From: Arcobacter nitrofigilis DSM 7299
GTDB taxonomy: Bacteria; Campylobacterota; Campylobacteria; Campylobacterales; Arcobacteraceae
Assembly: GCF_000092245.1 (NCBI RefSeq)
Contig: NC_014166.1
Span: 2,418,001-2,482,000 of the forward strand
Direction of reading: 5' to 3'
Length of the DNA stretch: 64,000 bases
Made by a program: the position numbers and the translations under genes. The notes beneath the pieces were generated by a model that ran no database searches, was not told the DNA's origin, and worked only from the letters and a program-made list of their open reading frames with translations. Positions 9,398-60,067 of the stretch are shown here, piece after piece. Position 1 is the first letter of the stretch; each line of letters begins with the position of its first letter.

Positions 9398-9792
9398 GGG
9401 GATGACTTGGTATCGATTAGAGCAGTGAGGATTGGTTGCATGTCGGCCTGAACATGCCGTTATACGGTTCATTTTTTTTAGACGCAAATAATACAAATTA
9501 CGCTCCAGCTTACGCTAAAGTAGCATAAGTTAAACACAGACTCGCCTAACGGCTTGAGACTTTGGAGGTTTCCACTACAGATTCTATCTATGTAGTATTA
9601 CGGAGATTCACCCTAGATAGATTATCATTTTAGAGTTGATTTGACTATTTTGAGACATTTAAAATCTTAGCTTCACAATATGCCTTGCAGGTTGAGTTGT
9701 TGTAAAGTGAAATTCTTCAACCTTTTACTAAACATGTAGACGCTGGTAGTAGCTGTTTTAAGACTGGAGTTCAATTCTCCACATCTCCACCA
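9398..9792 (+). ncRNA. ssrA: transfer-messenger RNA (tmRNA)
   Basis: The 5' end GGGGATGACTTGG and the 3' end with T-arm GGAGTTCAATTCTCC and encoded CCA are diagnostic. The mRNA-like part at 9484-9528 reads ANNTNYAPAYAKVA followed by TAA, very close to the Campylobacter jejuni tag. It rescues stalled ribosomes with SmpB and tags the nascent chains for proteolysis, for example by ClpXP or ClpAP. The 3' end is a common target for tyrosine recombinases, and a recombinase gene begins 181 bases downstream. Confidence 0.98.
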
Positions 9793-9905
9793 TTATAACT
9801 TTCCAAACAATTCATAAAAGTCCATTAAACTACTAAAAATGGGGCTTTACTATCATTTTTAGTCTAATATCATCTAATCACTTTTCAGTAAATCTAAATC
9901 TTTTG

Positions 9906-9950
9906 GGGTACTTTTTGTAAAATTAAGAAATTGAATTAAAAAAAGTACCC
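9906..9950. repeat. inverted GGGTACTTTTT arm-type sites upstream of the integrase
   Basis: GGGTACTTTTT at 9906-9916 and its reverse complement at 9940-9950 form a dyad just before the recombinase start. The same 11-mer recurs at 17098-17108 at the far end of the island. Such repeats fit the arm sites bound by the N-terminal domain of P4-type integrases; this is inferred from position and recurrence. Confidence 0.6.
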
Positions 9951-9973
9951 TAAAATCTTTCAAAAGGATTCAC

Positions 9974-11206
9974 ATGGCACGAACTATTGCACCTTTGACA
10001 AATATAGAAATTAAATCTGCAAAATCAAAAGAAAAAGATTATAAACTTTTTGATGGTGGTGGTCTTTTCATATTAGTTGTAAAGTCTGGTGGAAAAAGAT
10101 GGAGATTAAAGTATAGATTCAATAATAAAGAAAAAGTTTTATCTATAGGAACATATCCAGTTCTTTCACTAAAAGATGCCAGAGAAATTAGAGATAATTA
10201 TAAAAATCTAATTGCCAAAGGCATTGACCCCATTGAACAAAAAAAATAATCTAAAGAAAAAAATAATACAAATGAAAAGAAAAAAGAGAATACCTTTTAT
10301 AAAGTTTCTCAAGAATGGCATAAAAACTATGCAAGTGAAGTAACAAAAAACTACCATACAAAATTAGAAAGAGCATTAGAACTTTATGTTTATCCTTTTA
10401 TAAAAGACAAATCTATCGAAGATATTACAAGACTTGATATTATTGAGATATTACAAGACTTAAAAGAACAAAATATTCAAGAAACTGCAAAAAGAGTTTT
10501 TATGCTTTTAAATAAAATATATAAATATGCAGTAACCCTAGAATATACACCACACAATATAATAGCCGACATAGAACAAAAAACAATATTAGGTAAAAGA
10601 GAAAAACGACACTACCCTACTTTTGTCAGCGACAAAGATATAAAAGCTTTACTTCTAGCTATTGATGAATATTCAGGGGATTACACAACCAAAATGGCAT
10701 TAAAAATGCTTCCCTATGTATTTGTTAGAAGTTTTAATATAAGACATTGTGAATGGTCTGAAATAGATTTTGAAAACAGACAATGGGTTATCCCAAAAGA
10801 AAAAATGAAAACTAAAATAGAATTTATCCTACCTCTACCAAATCAAGTAATAGAAATACTAAATGAAATAAAACAATTTTCAGGAAAAGGAAAATATGTT
10901 TTTCCAAGTTTTAGGGGAAAAGATAAACCAATGAGTGATAATACACTAATTTCAGCATTAAGAAGGATGGGATTTACAAAAGAAGAATTTGTACCCCACA
11001 GTTTTAGAGCTATGTTTTCAACTATTGCATATGAAAATGCAAATACTGAAAATGGACATAAATATACAGGAGAAGTTATCGAAGCCCTACTTGCACATAA
11101 AGAACAAAATAAAATTAAAGAGGCTTATAATAGAGCATTGTATAAAGAATCAATGAGAGGATTAATTATTTGGTATAGTAATTATTTAGATAAAATCAAA
11201 AGATAA
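9974..11206 (+). pseudogene. P4-type tyrosine recombinase (integrase) interrupted by one in-frame TAA
   Basis: Residues 1-91 (9974-10246) are the arm-binding DUF4102-type domain (LFDGGGLFILV, KVLSIGTYP, LKDARE). A TAA at 10247-10249 then stops it. The same frame stays open from 10250 to 11206 and encodes the core-binding and catalytic domains, with the first catalytic Arg in FVRSFN, HSFR, LLAHKEQN and the Tyr in YNRALY. Without the stop the protein would be 410 residues, the family norm. The start is supported by AAAGGA 8 bases upstream. A lone nonsense codon suggests recent inactivation, readthrough, or re-initiation at 10502. It is the presumed integrase of the element inserted at ssrA. Confidence 0.9.
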
Positions 11207-11266
11207 TTTAAAATTACATTAAGTAAATATTATATAGACTAAAAAATTATAAAAAAAAGGCTTAGT

Positions 11267-12202
11267 ATGGATGCAAAATTATATGATAATAGTTTTTATA
11301 AAAAAAGAAAAGAAACTTCAGAACATAAAATTCAATTGTTAAAAGATGAAATGGATAAAAAATTCTGTAGTGATGTTACTATTTTTGTTGTTGGTTCATT
11401 AGGAAGAGAAGAGGTTGGAGAAAATTCAGATTTAGATTTATTTATCTTTGCCAAAAAAGAAATTCCAAGATTGGAACAATACAAAATATTTGTTAAACTT
11501 CAAGAAATAAATGAAAAATTAGGTTTTCCTGAATTTAGTAATGATGGTCAGTTTTTAAATATCCACACGGTTGAAAATTTGAAAAAGCATACTGGTTCTC
11601 CAAATGATGATTCTGAAAATTTATTTACTGCAAGAATGTTAATGCTACTAGAAAGTAAAGTTGTATTTAATGAAAAACTATTTGATGAAATTTTAAATGA
11701 CATAATCCAAAATTATTTAAGAGATAGTGAAAAAAATGATAATTTTGTACCGTTTTTCTTATTAAATGATATTTTAAGATATTGGAGAACACTTTGTTTA
11801 AATTATGAAGCAATTAGACATGATGATGAAAGACCATGGAGAAAAAAGAATGTAAATTTAAAATATAGTAGAATGCTAACAGTTTTTTCAACTGTTCTTT
11901 CTTTAATTGTGACAAAAGATATAACAAAAGAAAAGATTTTTTCAATCTGTAAAAAGACGCCTTTAGAAAGAATCATATATTCATTGGAAATAATTAATGA
12001 TGATTCATTAAATAAAGAATTTGACAATATTTTAAATTTTTATAAAATATTTTTAGAAGCAAAAGAGCAAACTAATATTGAAAAAGATGTAGCTATTAAA
12101 ATGTTATTAAATACAAATGCCGAAAAATTTTCAGATATAATAACATCTTTCTTAAATAATGAGAAGATTGATAAAAAACTTAGAAAATTTTTGGTGGTAT
12201 AG
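11267..12202 (+). CDS. nucleotidyltransferase (Pol beta superfamily) with helical C-terminal domain
   Basis: 311 residues. The NTase signature is VVGSLGREEVGENSDLDLFIF, with the Gly-Ser at 43-44 and metal-binding Asp55/Asp57. The remainder is helical, with the block DILRYWRTLCLNYE followed by W-K-K-NVNLKYSRML. I associate that block with DUF294-like NTase proteins, not with canonical CD-NTases, which have a different GS loop. It probably adds nucleotides to an RNA, protein or small molecule. Its stop codon abuts the start of the 2H phosphoesterase gene, so the two form one unit. It sits in the integrative element and faces a patatin gene. The substrate is unknown. Confidence 0.8.
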   Translation: MDAKLYDNSFYKKRKETSEHKIQLLKDEMDKKFCSDVTIFVVGSLGREEVGENSDLDLFIFAKKEIPRLEQYKIFVKLQEINEKLGFPEFSNDGQFLNIHTVENLKKHTGSPNDDSENLFTARMLMLLESKVVFNEKLFDEILNDIIQNYLRDSEKNDNFVPFFLLNDILRYWRTLCLNYEAIRHDDERPWRKKNVNLKYSRMLTVFSTVLSLIVTKDITKEKIFSICKKTPLERIIYSLEIINDDSLNKEFDNILNFYKIFLEAKEQTNIEKDVAIKMLLNTNAEKFSDIITSFLNNEKIDKKLRKFLVV

Positions 12203-12715
12203 ATGAAAATAAAAAAAATGCTTTTATTAAATATTTTAGATGATAAAATTAAAGAATTTATAAATAATACATGTGAAAGATATGATTTAAAAAAGCCATC
12301 ACTTCTCCCTCATATTACACTTAGGGGTCCATTTCTTTATAATAAAAGAAAACCATCCAAGAATATAATAATTAAATTAAATACTTTTATAGAAGATATT
12401 AAAAATAATAAGCAGGAATTAAAAATAAAAGGAATTGGAATGTTTTGTGATAATGATATCTATGTTATATATCTAAATGTTATTCCAACTAATATTTTAA
12501 AAAGTTTAAGTTATAAAAAAGATTATTCATTCGCGAAATATGGCTTTAACCCACATATTACAATTTTTTCTACAAAAGATAAAAAAAAAGCATTACAAAT
12601 AAAAAGTACACTAGAATTTAAAAACTTAGAATTTTCATGTAAAAAAGTTGAATGGGGTATACATGAATTAAAAAGTATTGAAAAGAATATGTTTAATATT
12701 TCAAATTTTTCGTAA
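12203..12715 (+). CDS. 2'-5' RNA ligase/2H phosphoesterase family protein
   Basis: 170 residues with two HxT motifs in the expected sequence context: PHITLRGPF (His37, Thr39) and NPHITIFST (His118, Thr120). These define the 2H superfamily, which acts on 2'-5' or cyclic phosphodiester bonds in RNA, tRNA-splicing products or cyclic (oligo)nucleotides. The ATG directly follows the TAG of the nucleotidyltransferase gene (0-base gap), so the pair should be made together. One enzyme may make or attach a nucleotide and the other remove it; that is inference. Confidence 0.85.
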   Translation: MKIKKMLLLNILDDKIKEFINNTCERYDLKKPSLLPHITLRGPFLYNKRKPSKNIIIKLNTFIEDIKNNKQELKIKGIGMFCDNDIYVIYLNVIPTNILKSLSYKKDYSFAKYGFNPHITIFSTKDKKKALQIKSTLEFKNLEFSCKKVEWGIHELKSIEKNMFNISNFS

Positions 12716-12735
12716 ATTGTATTACTAATTAACTT

Positions 12736-13683
12736 TTAATTTTCTAATGAAATTAATTTACTAATATTATCAATATTTTTTGAAAAATATTTACTTGCTT
12801 TTGCTTCTAGTTCGGGTATTATATCCATACTATCCAATGATAAATTATTATCTGATTCAAAATTAATTCTCAAATAATTTTCTTTAGGTAATAGAAAGCT
12901 TACAGTGTTATCAACATTAATCGATTGTAAATTTAAAATTGTGTCAATTAATTTACTTGTATTCCAATTAGAAAGAAAACCCCACTTATCATTTATAGCA
13001 TCTTTTGTATTGTAATATTGACATCCTATTCCTGTTCCAATAGACAATAACCTTGTATTTTTAAAAGATATATTTTTATTAGTTTTTGTTTTCTTTATTT
13101 TACCTACTCCTTCAGTAATAGCAACTAATGATGGATTATTTGCCCACAACCCACCATCTGCTAATAAAACTTTTTCAAGTTGAATTGGATTAAAATAAAG
13201 TGGTGCAGAACATGAGGCAAGAATAACATCCCTTATTTTACGTTCTTTATCTCTTTTAAATTCCTTTAAATAATACGATTTAATTATATGAACATCGCCA
13301 TTAGAAATATCTGTTGTGGGAATTAGTAATTTAGTTTTTAATTTTTTATCAAATAATGTTATATCTTTAAATTTTTTTTCTAATAATTTCTTTAAATATC
13401 CATTATCATATCTACTTTTAAATAATCCACCTCGTCCGAATTGCCGTAATTTAAAAATATTTGAACCCTCAGTTTTATAGAGTTCTATAATTTCTTCTAG
13501 AGGTAAACCAATAGCAATTGCAGAAGCCAAAATAGATCCAGTACTTGTTCCCGCAACCAAATCAAAATGTTCATATATCTTAATTTTAAATTTATCTTCT
13601 ATTTCTTTTAATATAATTGCAGAAAAGATACCTCTAATACCTCCACCATCAATAGCCAAAACTCTAAAATTATTATCCATCAA
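12736..13683 (-). CDS. patatin-like phospholipase, CapV-like
   Basis: 315 residues. The patatin oxyanion loop is GGGIRG (13-18), the nucleophile elbow GTSTG (Ser47) and the catalytic Asp in ADGG (Asp176), so all catalytic parts are intact. The opening VLAIDGGGIRGIF and the FDLVAGTSTGSILA stretch resemble CapV, the membrane-degrading effector of CBASS, though housekeeping patatins share them. No signal peptide is present. The gene converges on the NTase-2H pair with a 20-base gap and has its own 5' region. It may be the killing arm of a defence cassette, or an independent cargo gene. Confidence 0.88.
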   Translation of the reverse strand: MMDNNFRVLAIDGGGIRGIFSAIILKEIEDKFKIKIYEHFDLVAGTSTGSILASAIAIGLPLEEIIELYKTEGSNIFKLRQFGRGGLFKSRYDNGYLKKLLEKKFKDITLFDKKLKTKLLIPTTDISNGDVHIIKSYYLKEFKRDKERKIRDVILASCSAPLYFNPIQLEKVLLADGGLWANNPSLVAITEGVGKIKKTKTNKNISFKNTRLLSIGTGIGCQYYNTKDAINDKWGFLSNWNTSKLIDTILNLQSINVDNTVSFLLPKENYLRINFESDNNLSLDSMDIIPELEAKASKYFSKNIDNISKLISLEN

Positions 13684-13860
13684 TCCACCCTTATATTAAT
13701 AAATAGATTTATTATATAATAAAAATAGTATTTATATTGACAAATTAATGATTTATATGAAATATACTAGCTATTTAATGAATTGTTTTTAAACAATCAA
13801 ACTCCTTTCATCTTATCCTTAAACTAAATAACCTATTTAATAAATGTTAAATCAGAAAAT

Positions 13861-14133
13861 CTAACCTAGTATTTTTTTAATATTTTGTATCTCATTTTCT
13901 AAAATATTATCCGTTAATCCTATTTTATCCTTTATATATGCCCATTGTCTAATAATTGGTAAGTTACCCATTTCTAATAAAAAGTTAGAATTACTAATAT
14001 CTCCTAGAATAATGCATCTAATTAATTCAGATTTTGACATTTGAAATAATTCACATAATTTATCAATCTGTTTTGATTCTTCTTCACTCACTCTAAATCT
14101 TATAGTTGTATTTTTATTTGTTTTTTCTGACAT
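13861..14133 (-). CDS. ribbon-helix-helix DNA-binding protein
   Basis: 90 residues. The segment TTIRFRVSEEESKQIDKL followed by MSKSELIRCIILG fits the beta-strand/helix/helix of RHH repressors and MobC-type accessory proteins. The C-terminal part is helical and unrecognised. The 5' region contains several copies of the half-site TTGTAGC in both orientations, as expected for autoregulation. It may control the element's mobility or the divergent replication-like gene. Confidence 0.7.
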   Translation of the reverse strand: MSEKTNKNTTIRFRVSEEESKQIDKLCELFQMSKSELIRCIILGDISNSNFLLEMGNLPIIRQWAYIKDKIGLTDNILENEIQNIKKILG

Positions 14134-14163
14134 AAATATCCTTTTTCTTAAGAAAATTTTAAA

Positions 14164-14248
14164 GCTACAAATATTATAATTGTAGCTACATTAATAATAT
14201 TTGTAGCACTTTTTAGAATTATTTTGCTAATTTATTAATATTTGTAGC
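14164..14248. promoter_or_regulatory. repeated TTGTAGC half-sites, probable RHH operator
   Basis: A 14-bp perfect inverted repeat, GCTACAAATATTAT at 14164-14177 and ATAATATTTGTAGC at 14194-14207, encloses the palindrome TGTAGCTACA (14181-14190). Another AATATTTGTAGC occurs at about 14236-14247. All lie just upstream of the RHH gene start. Clustered half-sites in both orientations are how RHH dimers bind cooperatively; the link to this RHH protein is inferred. Confidence 0.65.
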
Positions 14249-14297
14249 AATCTTATCAGATTTTTATTTAATTGTAAATAATAAAAAAAACTCATTT

Positions 14298-14331
14298 AAA
14301 AACTCAACGAGCGGACGCGATTTGAGTTTTT
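14298..14331. other. stem-loop with GC-rich loop upstream of the replication-like ORF
   Basis: AAAAACTCAA and TTGAGTTTTT form a perfect 10-bp stem around the 14-base loop CGAGCGGACGCGAT, which is strikingly GC-rich for this genome. It could be a bidirectional terminator, since the stem ends in U5. Alternatively it could be a nick or single-strand origin for a rolling-circle-type element, given the gene that follows. Confidence 0.5.
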
Positions 14332-14393
14332 GAAATGTTGTTCCTTGATTACTTTTAAAAAAGTTACTACACCCTAATAAAGAAAGGAAAGAT

Positions 14394-14777
14394 ATGTACG
14401 GAATTACCAATGAAGATATGGAATATATCGAAAGTAAAATAGAGAAACAAAAACAGTTTTTAAAAAACTTCTCTATAGATTTTGCAGATAAATCTGTAAG
14501 TATGTTAGATAATACTTATTCGGCTAACTTAAATCCTAAAAAGTATTTTGCAGAAATTAACAATCGTGTTAACTCACTATTTGATTATGCTAAAGATAAT
14601 GGTTTAAGACCTGTATTCGTTATAAGTGAATTTGAAAAATATGTATTTGATGATATTCAAAATGCCTTTTTAAGACTTCCTGTTGTTCCATCAAGATTAA
14701 GTGATTATAAACTAGATAGATATTATAGATTACTTGACAATTTAGATATTAAAGATTTAGATTTAGTACATTTTTAA
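14394..14777 (+). CDS. unknown protein, possible N-terminal remnant of an element replication protein
   Basis: 127 residues, no catalytic motif. The opening (IKS-type helix, LDNTYSANLNPKKYFAEINNR, then YAKDNGLRPVFV) reminds me of the N-termini of replication-endonuclease proteins in Campylobacterota islands, where the next strand leads to the HUH region. Here the sequence departs right after PVFV, so a deletion is likely. Preceded by AAAGGAAAG. The frame continues past its TAA into the next ORF. Expression and function are doubtful. Confidence 0.5.
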   Translation: MYGITNEDMEYIESKIEKQKQFLKNFSIDFADKSVSMLDNTYSANLNPKKYFAEINNRVNSLFDYAKDNGLRPVFVISEFEKYVFDDIQNAFLRLPVVPSRLSDYKLDRYYRLLDNLDIKDLDLVHF

Positions 14778-14792
14778 ATAGTTAAAAATGAA

Positions 14793-14990
14793 ATGATTAA
14801 AAGAGATTTACTTCAAGAAGAGATTATATCACCTAATGAATTTTCAACATATCAACAAACGACTGAAAGAAGTGCGTTAGCCAACGTACCCCTTAAGTTT
14901 AGTATTGTAGAAGAGTTTGACTATGACGTTCCCTATATGCCATGCGACAATGATTTAAATTTAATAACAACTAATTCAAAAAGGATATAA
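14793..14990 (+). CDS. small hypothetical protein, or in-frame continuation of the preceding ORF
   Basis: 65 residues with no recognised domain, rich in Asp, Glu, Tyr and Pro. It is in the same frame as the upstream ORF, from which it is separated only by a TAA and five sense codons. No Shine-Dalgarno sequence precedes its ATG. It ends 1 base before the AlpA-like gene. It is either the 3' part of a gene interrupted by a nonsense codon or a translationally coupled small protein. Confidence 0.4.
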   Translation: MIKRDLLQEEIISPNEFSTYQQTTERSALANVPLKFSIVEEFDYDVPYMPCDNDLNLITTNSKRI

Positions 14991-14991
14991 C

Positions 14992-15174
14992 ATGACTAAT
15001 TTTATAAGAATACAAGATGTAATGAAAAAAACAGGTATTGCAAGAAGTACTATATGGCTATGGGTCAAAGAAAATAGATTTCCTAAACCTGTTAAACTAA
15101 GTCCTAGAATTACAGTATGGGAAGAAGATAAAATTCAAGAGTGGCAGAAAACACAGTTAACATATACAAAATAA
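14992..15174 (+). CDS. AlpA-family excisionase/transcription regulator
   Basis: 60 residues comprising one winged helix-turn-helix: FIRIQDVMKKTGIARSTIW, then the conserved NRFPKPVKLSPR wing and W-E-E-D-K-I-QEW helix. AlpA-type proteins act as excisionases or activators of integrase genes in P4-like elements. Position after the replication-like genes fits that role. Start ATG follows AAAAGGATATAAC. Confidence 0.88.
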   Translation: MTNFIRIQDVMKKTGIARSTIWLWVKENRFPKPVKLSPRITVWEEDKIQEWQKTQLTYTK

Positions 15175-15190
15175 ATATAAGAACTTAAAA

Positions 15191-16480
15191 CTAATTTGAG
15201 TTTGATATATATTCAACACAATAATCTATCATTGGAGTTAGTTTTTTAATTCTTTCTTGAACATCATTTTTATATTTTTTGAAAAATTCAATCTTATTCT
15301 CATTAGATAACTCAACTAAAGTAGGATTATCTAAACTTTTATTAATTTGATTCGAAACTCTTTTAAACTCTTTGACAAAACCTTTTACATTAATATTTAA
15401 TTCTTCGCAAAATTCTACAAAATCATAAGTACCAAGTTCATCATAATTAAATGCTTCATTAATTCCCATTGCAAAATCAGTTTCATATTTATTATCATAT
15501 ACTGTAATATTTATAATATCATAAAAAGGAGTTAATATCATACTATTTTTTTCAATCATAAATGATAAGTTCTTTCCATGTGCATCACTATTACCTAAGC
15601 ACAAATTGACACATATCCAAGTTATTAAATTTTTCTTTGCAAGAATAGGTGAATCACAATTACCAACAAGTGAAAATATCTTTTTAAAAGATGCACCTTC
15701 TCTGTAATCTTTCATATCTCCTGAACCAAAGGCTCTTTCATATTTATGGAATACTGATAAATCTAAAGCTTGGCAGGCATCAATAATATGTTTTCTTTTA
15801 ATGGTTGAATTATCAATTAGTTTTCTATCAAATCTTTCAATTAAAAGCACTTCTTGGTCTTCAATTTTAATTAATTTAGTATTTGGAACTAATAATCCTG
15901 CTTCTGAAGCTAACTTTAAAGACAAAAATTCATTAAGAACAATATTATCAGTATCTTTTTCAAATTTTAGTATATGAGTAGAAGCAAGTTCACCTTCACC
16001 GAATCCAAACTTACTATCTATAATAGTAATTGGCAACTTATCTTGGACACCAGCTACACTAAGTCTCGCTTTACCATCCCAGACTTCGATAGGTATACTC
16101 TTTCTGTTCCTTATTCTTTCCGCTAATTCAGATTCAGGAATTTCCCTAAAACTTGTTTCTAGAACAATATCTTTTGAACTAAAAGTTAATGCACCCGTTG
16201 TTTCTTTTCCAATAATTTGAATTAAGCCAAATATATTATTTTTAGAAATATGATGGAAATTAGTTAGAATTTCTCGACCTTGACCTTCTGGCAATAAGTT
16301 TTCAACAAAATTTCTTATAGTTTTTGATGATATTTTTACTTCAAATTTCATACATGGCGATAATTCAAAACCATTTTCTTTCCAATAATCAGTATATTCA
16401 AAACTAAATTCTTCTTTATTTGCATCAAACTTTAAGAATGCAACTTCTTTCTTATCACAAAATAATATTAATGTATTCAT
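15191..16480 (-). CDS. hipA: HipA-like serine/threonine kinase toxin
   Basis: 429 residues, typical HipA length. The N-terminal subdomain has LLPEGQGRE. The segment VAGVQDKLPI holds the phosphate-binding loop region, LLIERFDRK follows, and the kinase catalytic motif is GNSDAHGKN. HipA kinases phosphorylate aminoacyl-tRNA synthetases (GltX in E. coli) and block translation. The gene starts 3 bases after the HipB-like antitoxin, giving an operon in antitoxin-first order. All key residues seem intact, so the toxin is probably active. Confidence 0.9.
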   Translation of the reverse strand: MNTLILFCDKKEVAFLKFDANKEEFSFEYTDYWKENGFELSPCMKFEVKISSKTIRNFVENLLPEGQGREILTNFHHISKNNIFGLIQIIGKETTGALTFSSKDIVLETSFREIPESELAERIRNRKSIPIEVWDGKARLSVAGVQDKLPITIIDSKFGFGEGELASTHILKFEKDTDNIVLNEFLSLKLASEAGLLVPNTKLIKIEDQEVLLIERFDRKLIDNSTIKRKHIIDACQALDLSVFHKYERAFGSGDMKDYREGASFKKIFSLVGNCDSPILAKKNLITWICVNLCLGNSDAHGKNLSFMIEKNSMILTPFYDIINITVYDNKYETDFAMGINEAFNYDELGTYDFVEFCEELNINVKGFVKEFKRVSNQINKSLDNPTLVELSNENKIEFFKKYKNDVQERIKKLTPMIDYCVEYISNSN

Positions 16481-16483
16481 TTT

Positions 16484-16726
16484 TTATTCCAGTATTACTT
16501 TTAAACCAAACATCTTAGCAACATGAATTGCAGTTGATAGCCTTACCCCTTCAAAACCTTTTTCTAAACGAATAAGCGTTCTCATATTTATATTACAAAG
16601 TTCTGCTGCTTCTGCTAAAGTTAACCCCTCATTTGTTCTTCTAAATTTTAAATGCTTTCCAAAATCTTTTACCTCTAGAATTACATTTGTGTTAGGTTCG
16701 ATAGAGACTTTTACATTTTTTGCCAT
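16484..16726 (-). CDS. hipB: HipB-like antitoxin, XRE-family repressor
   Basis: 80 residues with an XRE helix-turn-helix at 24-77 (GKHLKFRRTNEGLTLAEAAE, then MRTLIRLEKG). It should neutralise HipA and repress the operon by binding upstream DNA. A good AGGAG ribosome site lies 6-8 bases before the ATG. Immediately upstream begins a tandem array of five 50-bp units, the likely place for its operators. Confidence 0.88.
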   Translation of the reverse strand: MAKNVKVSIEPNTNVILEVKDFGKHLKFRRTNEGLTLAEAAELCNINMRTLIRLEKGFEGVRLSTAIHVAKMFGLKVILE

Positions 16727-16740
16727 AATATCTCCTGATT

Positions 16741-16990
16741 AAGTCTTTATAAGTGTATCTTAGTACATTTTATTCTGTTTAATCTTAAACAAGACTTTAT
16801 AATTGCTGTTTTGTACATTTTATTCTCCTTAATCTTAAATACTACTTTATAATTACCCTTTTGTACATTTAATTCTATCTAATATTAAATAAAACTTTAT
16901 AATTGCTGTTTTGTACATTTAATAGCCTTGAATCTTAGGAAATACTTTATAATTGTTGTTTTGTACAGTTTATAATTCTTAATCTTTGAC
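16741..16990. repeat. five tandem 50-bp repeats upstream of hipBA
   Basis: Units start at 16741, 16791, 16841, 16891 and 16941, each exactly 50 bp. Conserved parts are CTTTATAATT at the start (a TATAAT on the + strand), TTTTGTACATTT in the middle (with the palindrome TGTACA) and AATCTTAAA near the end. The unit nearest hipB is the most divergent in its first half. On the hipBA strand several units contain a GGAG-like site and an ATG. Candidate roles are a multi-site HipB operator, a row of promoters or a repeat RNA. Confidence 0.92.
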
Positions 16991-17097
16991 ACTCCTGTAA
17001 AAAATACATTTATACAATCTTCAAAAACTAAATTTTACTAAGTTTGTTATAATATATCTGTATTAAATTGCTTAAAGATTAATAAATTGAATTTTAG

Positions 17098-17120
17098 GGT
17101 ACTTTTTAGGGGTATTTTTA
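17098..17120 (+). repeat. direct GGGTA(C)TTTTT repeats at the right end of the element
   Basis: GGGTACTTTTT at 17098-17108 and GGGTATTTTT at 17111-17120, spaced 13 bp start to start, match the 11-mers flanking the integrase promoter. They mark the probable right arm of the integrative element. A copy of the ssrA 3' end was not found next to them. Confidence 0.6.
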
Positions 17121-17181
17121 GAATTTAATCCCTCAAGGCCCGATATAGATTCAACTTTGAGTGACCACATCACAATCCAAA

Positions 17182-19095
17182 TCAATCCTTTGATGTTCTA
17201 TTTTTTCCTTCATGTTTTGATACATACATTAACTTATCAATTCTTTCATAAATAGAAGTTGGGTTATCATTTTCTTTTACTTGTGTAATCCCTATACTTA
17301 TGGTCACTTTTTTATCTTTAATTAAATTCAACTTAGATACTTCATTCCTAATTTTTTCAATAGCATCAAAAGCTTCCAAAATTGGTGTTTTTGGGAAAAG
17401 GATTACAAACTCTTCTCCTCCTACTCTAAAAATCATATCTGTTTTTCTTATATGTTTTTTTATATATTTTGTCATATCAATCAAAACTTTATCCCCAACA
17501 TCATGTCCATAGGTATCATTTATACATTTAAAATCATCTATATCATACATAGCAATGCAAAATTCATTTTTATATCTATAGTATAAATCAAACTTTTCTT
17601 CTATTCTTTCATTAAATGCTTTTCGGTTAAAGATATTTGTTAACTCATCATGATAAGCTTCTTTTTTTAGTTTTTCATGTATATCATGAAGTTCTGTTAT
17701 ATCTCTACACACCACTAAAATACCTTCTTTTTTACTTTTCATATATTTAAAAGGTATTACCTTTGATTGGACAATTATATTTTGATTTTCATATATTATG
17801 TGTTCATTATTTATATATATTGAGTTTAAATTAAGAGCTTCCATGTCTCTTTTTCTAAATAATTGAGCATATTCTTTAGAAAAAAGTTCAAAATCATTTT
17901 TTCCTATTATTTCAGATTTCTTTTTGCCCACAAATTTTTCAAAACTTTTGTTACATCCTAAGTATCTAAACTTATTATCTTTATACAATATAAAATCATC
18001 AGTAGAATCTATTACTGTTTGTAGTTGTTCTTTTAAATATTTATTTTTCTTTAATATAAAAATTACAATCAAAAATACGACTATAAACAAAAATAAAATT
18101 ATAAAAATTAACTTTTGTTTCATAGGAGAAATTTCTAAACTCATTGTTTTATGTGAATTTCCATTATAGATAAAGTCATCCATTTTTATATCATTTTTTA
18201 CTAAACCAAATAATTTAAATACATTAAAAATATTTTGTAATTTTTTCTTATTTAAAGCACCTATTTCTCTATTATCTACATATGCCAATTTCTCTAAAAT
18301 CTCACCTTCTTTTATAAGATGGATATATGATTTATTTTGAGTATTATATTTTTTGTATATTATTTCTGCAGTTTCAGCTTTGTGTTCAAAGGCATATTCC
18401 CACCCCTTTAAACTTGCTTCATAAAAATCTTTTGTAAGTTTTGGATTATTTTTTATAAACTTATTAGAAGTAAAAAGAATATCACTATAAAAATTAAAGC
18501 CATAATTTTTTGGCTTAAAAATTTTGTATTTAATAGCTTTATCTTCTAATATAATTGGTTCATTTGATAAGTATGATGCCATAGCATCTGTATTACCTGA
18601 GATCAAATCATCTAATTTAAAGGAGTGACTTTGGCTTATAAAATCATTTTTATTTAATCCATTAGCACTTAGCATTGCTAAAAGAGATGCTGAAAAAGCA
18701 GCATCTGGTGTAATCATGATTTTTTTACCTTTTAAATCACTAACATTAACTATATGAGAATCTTTTCTTACCAAAAGCATCAAAGGTGACTCTTGAAATA
18801 TAGCACCTAGAGCAACTACATCTTCACCTCTTGCTTTTTCAATTAATAAAGAAGATCGCCCTATTGCAAAATCAGATTTTCCAGTTTTTATTGACTTCAA
18901 TAAATCAGTATTAAAGGTGTACTCTTTTATATCAACATCTAAACCAACATCTTTGTAAAAGCCTTTTTCTTTTGCAACATAATAACCTGCAAATTGAAAC
19001 TGATTTAACCAATTTAATTGAAGAATTACTTTTTTATATTCATTAGCAAATAATATAATTGGTAAAAAAACAAATAAATACAGTACCTTTTTCAT
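17182..19095 (-). CDS. membrane diguanylate cyclase with NMT1/THI5-type periplasmic binding domain and PAS domain
   Basis: 637 residues. After a signal peptide (about 1-17) comes an NMT1/THI5-like solute-binding domain (about 20-320; LNWLNQFQFAGYYVAKEKGFY is the family hallmark). A TM helix (about 329-349), a PAS domain (about 360-470) and a GGDEF domain follow. The active-site motif is GGEEF and the surrounding YDIDDFKCINDTYGHDVGD is intact, so c-di-GMP synthesis is likely. It probably senses a pyrimidine-like or other small ligand in the periplasm. It is the first chromosomal gene after the element. Confidence 0.93.
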   Translation of the reverse strand: MKKVLYLFVFLPIILFANEYKKVILQLNWLNQFQFAGYYVAKEKGFYKDVGLDVDIKEYTFNTDLLKSIKTGKSDFAIGRSSLLIEKARGEDVVALGAIFQESPLMLLVRKDSHIVNVSDLKGKKIMITPDAAFSASLLAMLSANGLNKNDFISQSHSFKLDDLISGNTDAMASYLSNEPIILEDKAIKYKIFKPKNYGFNFYSDILFTSNKFIKNNPKLTKDFYEASLKGWEYAFEHKAETAEIIYKKYNTQNKSYIHLIKEGEILEKLAYVDNREIGALNKKKLQNIFNVFKLFGLVKNDIKMDDFIYNGNSHKTMSLEISPMKQKLIFIILFLFIVVFLIVIFILKKNKYLKEQLQTVIDSTDDFILYKDNKFRYLGCNKSFEKFVGKKKSEIIGKNDFELFSKEYAQLFRKRDMEALNLNSIYINNEHIIYENQNIIVQSKVIPFKYMKSKKEGILVVCRDITELHDIHEKLKKEAYHDELTNIFNRKAFNERIEEKFDLYYRYKNEFCIAMYDIDDFKCINDTYGHDVGDKVLIDMTKYIKKHIRKTDMIFRVGGEEFVILFPKTPILEAFDAIEKIRNEVSKLNLIKDKKVTISIGITQVKENDNPTSIYERIDKLMYVSKHEGKNRTSKD

Positions 19096-57626: not shown

Positions 57627-60067
57627 TACATGTAATATTTATCTTTACTATCTTTTGATTCAGCCTCTTCTATTTTGTTATTTGCACTTATAGTTTCACT
57701 TGAAAATTCTTTATTCTGATTCATATTTGGGTTTTCAGAAGGAGTATTATCGCCTTCATAACTGCCAAAATCTAAATCAAAAGATGTGGCTCCACCTGCA
57801 AAACTTTTAAACAAACTATCTTTTAGCACTGATTGATTTTCAATTAAATTTTCTTTAGTTGAATTATTACTTGATTTCATACTAATTGATAAAGAGTTAT
57901 TTTTTGCATCACCTCTAATAAGAATAGCAATATGTCCCAAAGCAGAAGGATTTAAATTTACTCTAAATGCAGTTACTGGTGGATTATAGTTTTCATACAT
58001 TACCCTTGCTAAATCTGACATCATAGTAGACATATGTTGTCTTGCCCCAATAATTCTATTTTGTATAGTTTGCGCTGCAGCTGAACTAACAGTTAAGTTA
58101 ACTAACTTCGAATCAAATAATTTATCATCAAGCTTTTTATTTTGTATTAAAAAACTTCCTTTATCATCTTTAAATTTCTCTTCAGAAGAATCTTTTGAAT
58201 CTTTTGAGTCACTTGTTCCATTTTTAATGATTGATAATCTTTCAAATGTAGATGATAGTTTAGTTTCACTTTGAGGCTCTACACTTTTTTCTATTTTAAT
58301 TTCAACTTTTTCTAAACCAAGATTCAGTACTTTTGCACTTTGTTCTACTTCTTTTGTAGTAGTTGCATTTTTTGCAATTTCTACGCCCTCATGTTTTGTT
58401 TCAAGTTTTTTTATATCAGTAGATTTTTTTTGACTACTCATATAAATATTAGTTAATAAATCATTTTTTGACTTAGATAACTCACTTGAATTATTTACAG
58501 TAGGTTTTATTAATAGTTGTGTGGAATTAGTCTCTTTTTTAGATCTATTTTCTTTTAAAAGTTTATCAATTAAAGACTCACCTTTTGTATTTTTATCTTC
58601 AGAAGATGTCATTTTTTCATTTGTTAAAGTAGTTTTTTCATTTTTTACTTCTACATTTAATTTAGACAAATCATTTGCAACTTTTTGATTCTTAACTTCC
58701 AAATTTGAAGTTTTTGAGTTATCATTTTCTAAAGTTGATTTAGGGCTTTCATTAATATTATTTAGTACTTGTTTTTCAATTTTTTCACTTGATAAAGGTT
58801 TATTTAGATTTAAATCTTTTTGACTTTTGAAATCTATATTATCACTAGAATTTTTTTGAGTTACAATCTCTTTTTCAACTTTTTTATTTGACAAATTATT
58901 TAATTCATTTTGAATACTTTTTGTAGCATTGTCTATTTTATTTTCGCTCTTAGAATCACTTTTTACAGTAATCTCATCATTTTTAAGATCACTAATGGTT
59001 AAATTCTTTTTTACATCATTATTTGAAACATCTTTTTTATCTTTCTTTTGATTAAGAGAGTTTTCTTTTACTTCTACAGTATTTGTACTTGTTTCTTGAA
59101 CTAAGTTATTTAGCAAAGAAGTTGTTTTTGCATCGGCTTTAGTTGTATCTACTTTTCCATCAGTTTTAGTTGTATCTACTTTTGTTTCGGATTTTGATTC
59201 AGATTCAGTTTTTTCTGTTTTTTCTGTTTTAGAATCTTTTTTTACTTCTTTTATATTTGATTTTATCTCTTGAATTAATCTATCCATCAAAGAAGTTGTT
59301 TTTCCATCAGTTTTAGTTGTATCTACTTTTGTTTCAGGTTTAGATTCAGCTTCAGGTTTTGAAGTTTCAGTTTTTTCTGCTTTGGAATCTTTTTTTACTT
59401 CTTTTATATTTGATTTTGTCTCTTGAATTAATCTATCCATCAAAGAAGTTGTTTTTCCATCAGTTTTAGTTGTATCTACTTTTGTTTCAGGTTTAGATTC
59501 AGCTTCAGGTTTTGAAGTTTCAGTTTTTTCTGCTTTGGAATCTTTTTTTACTTCTTTTATATTTGATTTTGTCTCTTGAATTAATCTATCCATCAAAGAA
59601 GTTGTTTTTCCATCAGTTTTAGTTGTATCTACTTTTGTTTCGGGTTTTGAAGTTTCAGTTTTTGAAGTTTCAGTTTTTTCTACTTTTTCTGTTTTAGAAT
59701 CTTTTTTTAGTTCTTTTATATTTGATTTTGTCTCTTGAATTAATCTATCCATCAAAGAAGTTGTTTTTCCATCAGTTTTAGTTGTATCTACTTTTGTTTC
59801 AGGTTTAGATTCAGCTTCAGGTTTTGAAGTTTCAGTTTTTGGAATTTCAGTTTTTTCTACTTTTTCTATTTTAGAATCTTTTTTTACTTCTTTTATGTTT
59901 GATTTTGTCTCATTTCCAACATTCTCAATGTCAGTTTTTGCTTTTGTTAGAAATTTATCAAATAAAGATTCACCCTCTTTTTTTTGAGGATTATTTTGTG
60001 TAGTTTTGGAAGTATTTGTTATTTCCGTTGATTTGGAAGTAGAGAAAAGTTCTAATTCATTACTCAT
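57626..60067 (-). CDS. fliK: flagellar hook-length control protein FliK, repeat-expanded
   Basis: 813 residues, about twice the Salmonella length. The C-terminal domain (about 670-770; PPVTAFRVNLNPSALGHI and SSNNSTKENL) is the conserved Flg_hook domain that triggers the FlhB switch. The N-terminal two thirds are Lys/Glu/Thr/Ser-rich and contain four to five tandem 51-53-residue units. As FliK acts as a ruler, unit number should affect hook length. Position between flgC and fliR supports the identity. Confidence 0.9.
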   Translation of the reverse strand: MSNELELFSTSKSTEITNTSKTTQNNPQKKEGESLFDKFLTKAKTDIENVGNETKSNIKEVKKDSKIEKVEKTEIPKTETSKPEAESKPETKVDTTKTDGKTTSLMDRLIQETKSNIKELKKDSKTEKVEKTETSKTETSKPETKVDTTKTDGKTTSLMDRLIQETKSNIKEVKKDSKAEKTETSKPEAESKPETKVDTTKTDGKTTSLMDRLIQETKSNIKEVKKDSKAEKTETSKPEAESKPETKVDTTKTDGKTTSLMDRLIQEIKSNIKEVKKDSKTEKTEKTESESKSETKVDTTKTDGKVDTTKADAKTTSLLNNLVQETSTNTVEVKENSLNQKKDKKDVSNNDVKKNLTISDLKNDEITVKSDSKSENKIDNATKSIQNELNNLSNKKVEKEIVTQKNSSDNIDFKSQKDLNLNKPLSSEKIEKQVLNNINESPKSTLENDNSKTSNLEVKNQKVANDLSKLNVEVKNEKTTLTNEKMTSSEDKNTKGESLIDKLLKENRSKKETNSTQLLIKPTVNNSSELSKSKNDLLTNIYMSSQKKSTDIKKLETKHEGVEIAKNATTTKEVEQSAKVLNLGLEKVEIKIEKSVEPQSETKLSSTFERLSIIKNGTSDSKDSKDSSEEKFKDDKGSFLIQNKKLDDKLFDSKLVNLTVSSAAAQTIQNRIIGARQHMSTMMSDLARVMYENYNPPVTAFRVNLNPSALGHIAILIRGDAKNNSLSISMKSSNNSTKENLIENQSVLKDSLFKSFAGGATSFDLDFGSYEGDNTPSENPNMNQNKEFSSETISANNKIEEAESKDSKDKYYM
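59281..59900 (-). repeat. 153/159-bp tandem repeats inside fliK
   Basis: The landmark TATCCATCAAAGAAG recurs at 59281, 59434, 59587 and 59746. The units 59281-59433 and 59434-59586 are identical over all 153 bases as read; the next is 159 bp with an altered Ser/Glu/Thr part. All keep the reading frame. Perfect identity means recent duplication or active homogenisation. Confidence 0.93.

Follow-up and report, generated by a model that had tools for sequence, protein, structure and literature searches.

HipBA is a classic persistence toxin–antitoxin system, and in Arcobacter nitrofigilis DSM 7299 the hipBA operon is directly preceded by five tandem units of 50 bp, which raises the question of what such an array does at this position. 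The locus lies in the 64,000-nucleotide stretch of contig NC_014166.1 that we analysed (the window), with both genes on the minus strand. The hipA gene (15191–16480) encodes a 429-aa HipA kinase toxin with Couple_hipA (66 bits) and HipA_C (154.6 bits) domains. The hipB gene (16484–16726), separated from hipA by 3 bp, encodes an 80-aa XRE-type antitoxin and presumed repressor, for which HTH_3 matches above the cut-off and couple_hipB below the curated cut-off; its ribosome-binding site, as read from the sequence, is the AGGAG at 16732–16736 (minus strand). HipA kinase domains together with a small XRE-type hipB gene directly upstream place the locus among the hipBA type II toxin–antitoxin systems. 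More specifically, the toxin is of the Shewanella oneidensis type, S. oneidensis HipBA (PDB 4PU3–4PU8) being by sequence the closest solved relative of both HipA (E 3e-90 to 4PU3–5, versus 1e-22 to E. coli HipA) and HipB (E 4e-5 to 4PU3), and the GNSDAHGKN and TPFYD motifs of HipA align with 4PU5. Searches for HipA relatives gave only two weak matches in phages and none in viral contigs.

The array occupies positions 16741–16990 (minus strand; units are numbered from the hipB side). Its hipB-proximal unit begins 5 bp from the AGGAG, bearing out a preliminary description of this DNA that had placed the last unit at the hipB ribosome site. The units lie head to tail with a period of exactly 50 bp and no indels, a period also called by TRF (scores 173 and 257), and unit pairs match on average at 37.2 of 50 bases, against 17.2 in 2000 shuffles (sd 0.97, maximum 21.7). 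The same description spoke of five exact 50-bp units, which holds for the spacing and not for the sequence, as any two units share 33–41 of 50 bases (66–82%). On the plus strand CTTTATAA and GTACA are invariant across units; TATAAT, said to occur in every unit, is found in four of five, the hipB-proximal unit carrying TATAAG. The array is single-copy in the 3.19-Mb genome, with no second copy found elsewhere in it, and a search of viral contigs with one array unit returned no match. A separate tandem repeat in the window (59153–59840; 153 bp, 4.5 copies, 92% matches) looks coding.

On the hipB strand each unit follows the pattern AAAATGTAC-AAAA-(GTACA, degenerate)-ATTATAAAG, and the predicted operator cores, all on the minus strand, lie at 16754–16767 (TGTACTAAGATACA; centre 16760.5, −34 from the hipB ATG), 16804–16817 (TGTACAAAACAGCA, with a degenerate second half-site; centre 16810.5), 16854–16867 (TGTACAAAAGGGTA; centre 16860.5), 16904–16917 (TGTACAAAACAGCA; centre 16910.5) and 16954–16967 (TGTACAAAACAACA; centre 16960.5), the fourth being absent in most relatives and the fifth absent in relatives. 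The TGTAC half-site and the exact spacing are kept in all five units although unit pairs differ at 18–34% of positions. The second half-site is degenerate in units 2–5, with CAGCA, GGGTA or CAACA for GTACA; taken alone, the palindrome in the window is weak, and because a symmetric-palindrome scan mis-registers both the window and P. lekithochrous, the register there was set by hand. Two of the three sequence blocks previously singled out as conserved fit this arrangement, TTTTGTACATTT being the conserved half-site and CTTTATAATT the opposite outer flank, whereas the third, AATCTTAA, lies in the linker and has no shared block in relatives. The outer flank CTTTATAATT is conserved in P. lekithochrous too, and most of this block is interpretable as the operator's outer arm.

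To place the array in context, we gathered HipA and HipB relatives from the family, the order and the phylum as well as from plasmids, and read the DNA upstream of hipB. Comparison of close hipBA homologues recovered a period of 49–51 bp: in Campylobacterota, as in related hipBA loci on plasmids of gamma- and betaproteobacteria, hipB is typically preceded by three palindromes with centres 49–51 bp apart, and while the sequences of operators and linkers vary by lineage, the spacing stays. The closest locus whose operon is intact is that of P. lekithochrous, with a HipA 71% identical to that of the window and three sites at 50/50 bp (TATACAAAAGTACAATTATAAAGC; consensus close to AAAATRTACAAAAGTAYAATTATAAAGC). 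A pseudogene locus (G005) has TTATAC-N4-GTATAA at 50/50 bp, with similar operators in three further genomes (G059, G086 and G449). Distant relatives have palindromes of other sequence that are still 49–51 bp apart, including AAACTATATTTAGGTATTGTTT (L035), TAATACTATAAATAAAGTATTA (L041), AAATTATTTATATAAAGAATTT (L083) and, on a Legionella plasmid, AATCCTACTATAATAGGATT (L103). When an equal-spacing three-site palindrome model was scanned over periods of 28–85 bp, the best period was 49–51 bp at 32 of 38 loci, which are not phylogenetically independent, as opposed to 3 of 38 after shuffling; among 44 upstream regions of other window genes it was best in two, and in none with z of at least 3.5. A few loci depart from this pattern. 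Three (L081, L084 and L105) have the operator family yet no 49–51-bp period under the equal-spacing model, L081 fitting 49/49 once spacing is limited to 48–52 bp; L107 gave a period of 29 in one scan and 49 in another, and L074 showed no convincing array.

Because the linkers between units in relatives are only 18–55% identical, the spacing persists in the absence of sequence homology, which supports the earlier suggestion of selection on spacing. The accompanying view that typical hipBA operons lack a period of this kind proved wrong for this HipBA clade, where operator spacing of 49–51 bp is the rule; the window, with four steps of 50 bp and a weak second half-site, belongs to this class. 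We found no report of a 50-bp hipBA operator period in the open-access literature searched. Operator distance correlates with whole-HipB distance, and comparison of the recognition helix with the operator gave no excess covariation (partial Mantel r 0.00, p 0.48). A search with the array DNA itself across the family returned mostly A+T-rich noise, the real matches being G092 and G093.

These comparative data from other hipBA loci favour the proposal that the units are a HipB operator array, and we consider it very probable that the array serves as the operator region through which hipBA regulates itself, being a member of the 50-bp class enlarged to five units, with HipB as its putative binder. 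The degenerate second half-site in units 2–5 is the weak point of the operator reading. It seems not to be fatal, because in the HipBST system of Legionella pneumophila HipB binds each of three evenly spaced operators upstream of hipB in EMSA, and broken symmetry does not prevent a site from being bound (PMC10653801). HipBST resembles the window in having evenly spaced sites upstream of hipB and differs from it in spacing, its 18-nt sites being separated by 53 bp (which puts their centres about 71 bp apart), and in a toxin split into HipS and HipT; with a single full-length HipA and a 50-bp period, the window is not a HipBST locus.

The number of units sets the window apart from its relatives. 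Arcobacteraceae and other Campylobacterota hipBA loci (L061, L034, L035, L039 and others) share with it palindromes 49–51 bp apart in the same place, but have three sites and unrelated linkers where the window has five sites and homologous linkers. When the operator model was extended upstream in 48–52-bp steps, the window's fourth and fifth sites scored z 3.8 and 3.5, with background further upstream, and nearly all relatives ended at three sites; a Pseudoalteromonas plasmid (L104) has four, and a decayed copy in genome G093 has two. The linkers are as alike as the operators (0.84 each) in the window only. On the sequences compared, then, what is unusual here is the five units with near-identical linkers and not the 50-bp period. 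Since linkers and operators are equally alike, the array probably grew by copying complete 50-bp units, a mode of duplication that would keep the phase. Such growth need not have been selected: the operators near hipB may be real and the extra units functionless leftovers of slippage, as might be expected from the confinement of five units and homogeneous linkers to this genome. The extra units could be neutral in this sense, which concerns them only and is compatible with operator function of the proximal units; nevertheless, the retention of the TGTAC half-site and exact spacing in all five units, despite their pairwise difference of 18–34%, speaks against it, and we regard neutral duplication as an unlikely, if serious, alternative.

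We also considered that each unit might chiefly be a promoter, with TATAAT (plus strand) or TATAAA (hipB strand) forming a ladder of tandem starts. TATAAT in four of five units and ATTATAAAG in all three P. lekithochrous units would fit such a ladder, as would the fact that Campylobacterota promoters often lack a −35 element. However, a scan for sigma-70 promoters and for terminators showed no excess, promoter-like sites being no commoner than in shuffles and none being repeated per unit, and distant relatives keep the palindrome and its spacing rather than a hexamer per unit, TATAAT often occurring just once, at the proximal operator. A promoter ladder is thus improbable as the main function of the array, although CTTTATAATT might conceivably also serve as a −10 element, giving each unit a promoter as an added property.

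The position of the repeats directly before a toxin operon recalls the tandem ToxI-like repeat RNAs that precede the toxin gene in type III systems, and a repeat RNA antitoxin had been proposed on these grounds. We give this idea practically no credence. Folding of unit pairs on both strands gave no stable or unusual structure (z −1.07 to +0.86), an Rfam search gave no match, and relatives keep isolated palindromes and not transcribable repeats. Moreover, type III systems combine a structured repeat RNA antitoxin with a ToxN-like nuclease, whereas here the toxin is a kinase, HipA, and the antitoxin paired with it is a protein, HipB.

The array lies near the right end of a genomic island, and its units might accordingly be binding sites for the integrase or excisionase of that island. 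The island (9793–17165; 7.4 kb) sits at the 3′ end of the tmRNA gene (ssrA; 9398–9792) and carries hipBA and the array as cargo; the tmRNA gene and a GGDEF gene ending at 17182 flank it, and in the sister genome G033, where the empty site is present, these two are about 16 bp apart. The tyrosine integrase gene (9974–11206) encodes arm-binding and catalytic domains and is interrupted by an in-frame TAA at 10247–10249. Copies of a TTTTRGGGTACTTTTT motif near both island ends (9901–9916, 9940–9956 and 17091–17107; inverted at the left end) are candidate arm sites of the integrase. Also on the island, the segment 11267–13683 contains a nucleotidyltransferase gene (PADLOC candidate PDC-M70A) and a 2′-5′ RNA ligase/2H phosphoesterase-like gene, with a patatin phospholipase gene matching PADLOC effector models (E 1e-88) on the other strand, and is possibly a defence cluster. 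Inverted and direct repeats with GCTACAAATATTATAATTGTAG at 14164–14266, just upstream of a NikA/RHH-like gene (13861–14133, minus strand), are perhaps that protein's own operators. In genome G032 (contig 20, locus L125) the right end of the window's island stands beside other cargo, and hipBA is absent there. Because this right end, of the same sequence, has no array, the array belongs to hipBA and not to the integration machinery, and it is ruled out as a feature of the island end. Relatives of the array, too, travel with hipBA in unrelated contexts, and a role as integrase or excisionase sites is very improbable.

The best-studied hipBA operators differ from those of the window in period. 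In E. coli, HipB binds four operators in vitro, and this binding is reported to be cooperative, with HipA as co-repressor (PMC3920265). In both E. coli K-12 and the window, hipB is directly preceded by several palindromic sites of the XRE-antitoxin type. However, the K-12 sites are four copies of TATCC-N8-GGATA, centred at −125, −97, −58 and −30 (spacings 28/39/28 instead of 50), with linkers that are not repeated and a HipA of another clade, and the window has no operators of this type, whose spacing is 27–28 or 39 bp. Plasmid relatives of the E. coli type in Klebsiella, Citrobacter, Cronobacter, Mesorhizobium, Pseudosulfitobacter and Cereibacter have periods of 27–28 bp, those in Alteromonas about 26 bp, and those in Aeromonas 28 or 55 bp (about twice 27.5). 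On a maximum-likelihood HipA tree, a single change with support 100/100 separates the 28-bp and 50-bp classes, with the caveat that the arrays behind the period labels of L098, L105 and L107 are weak. The two periods differ by about two helical turns, and spacings of 28, 39 and 50 bp, with steps of about 11 and 22 bp, suggest, as a post hoc hypothesis, one helical phase. For Caulobacter, inverted repeats lying at intervals have been linked to the higher-order complexes of E. coli, which suggests that neighbouring complexes cooperate there too (PMC7029023).

A mechanism consistent with these comparisons can be outlined. Each 50-bp unit would be the site of one HipB dimer, and hipBA would be repressed when HipB with bound HipA fills adjacent sites. 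Neighbouring HipA2B2–DNA complexes would cooperate at a set distance, and the fixed centre distance of 49–50 bp in this HipBA clade presumably reflects their need for a set distance and rotation, a geometry that would let them contact each other or bend the promoter together. The ancestral three-site array would have become five by in-phase duplication of whole units, which would add docking sites for repressor and toxin and might affect toxin release. More tentatively, HipBA systems may fall into two classes with fixed periods, 27–28 bp in the E. coli class and 49–50 bp in the S. oneidensis/Campylobacterota class, nearly in the same phase and set by touching HipA–HipB complexes, with the five-unit lattice tuning the amount of DNA-held toxin.

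The persistence phenotype in E. coli is tied to the way in which HipA is held inactive on promoter DNA. A 50-bp period that stays constant across unrelated operators and linkers, and is distinct from the 27–28 bp seen in the E. coli class, suggests that a higher-order assembly is conserved in this HipBA clade, and the natural enlargement from three to five units would offer a way to test whether operator number sets the sequestration of the toxin.
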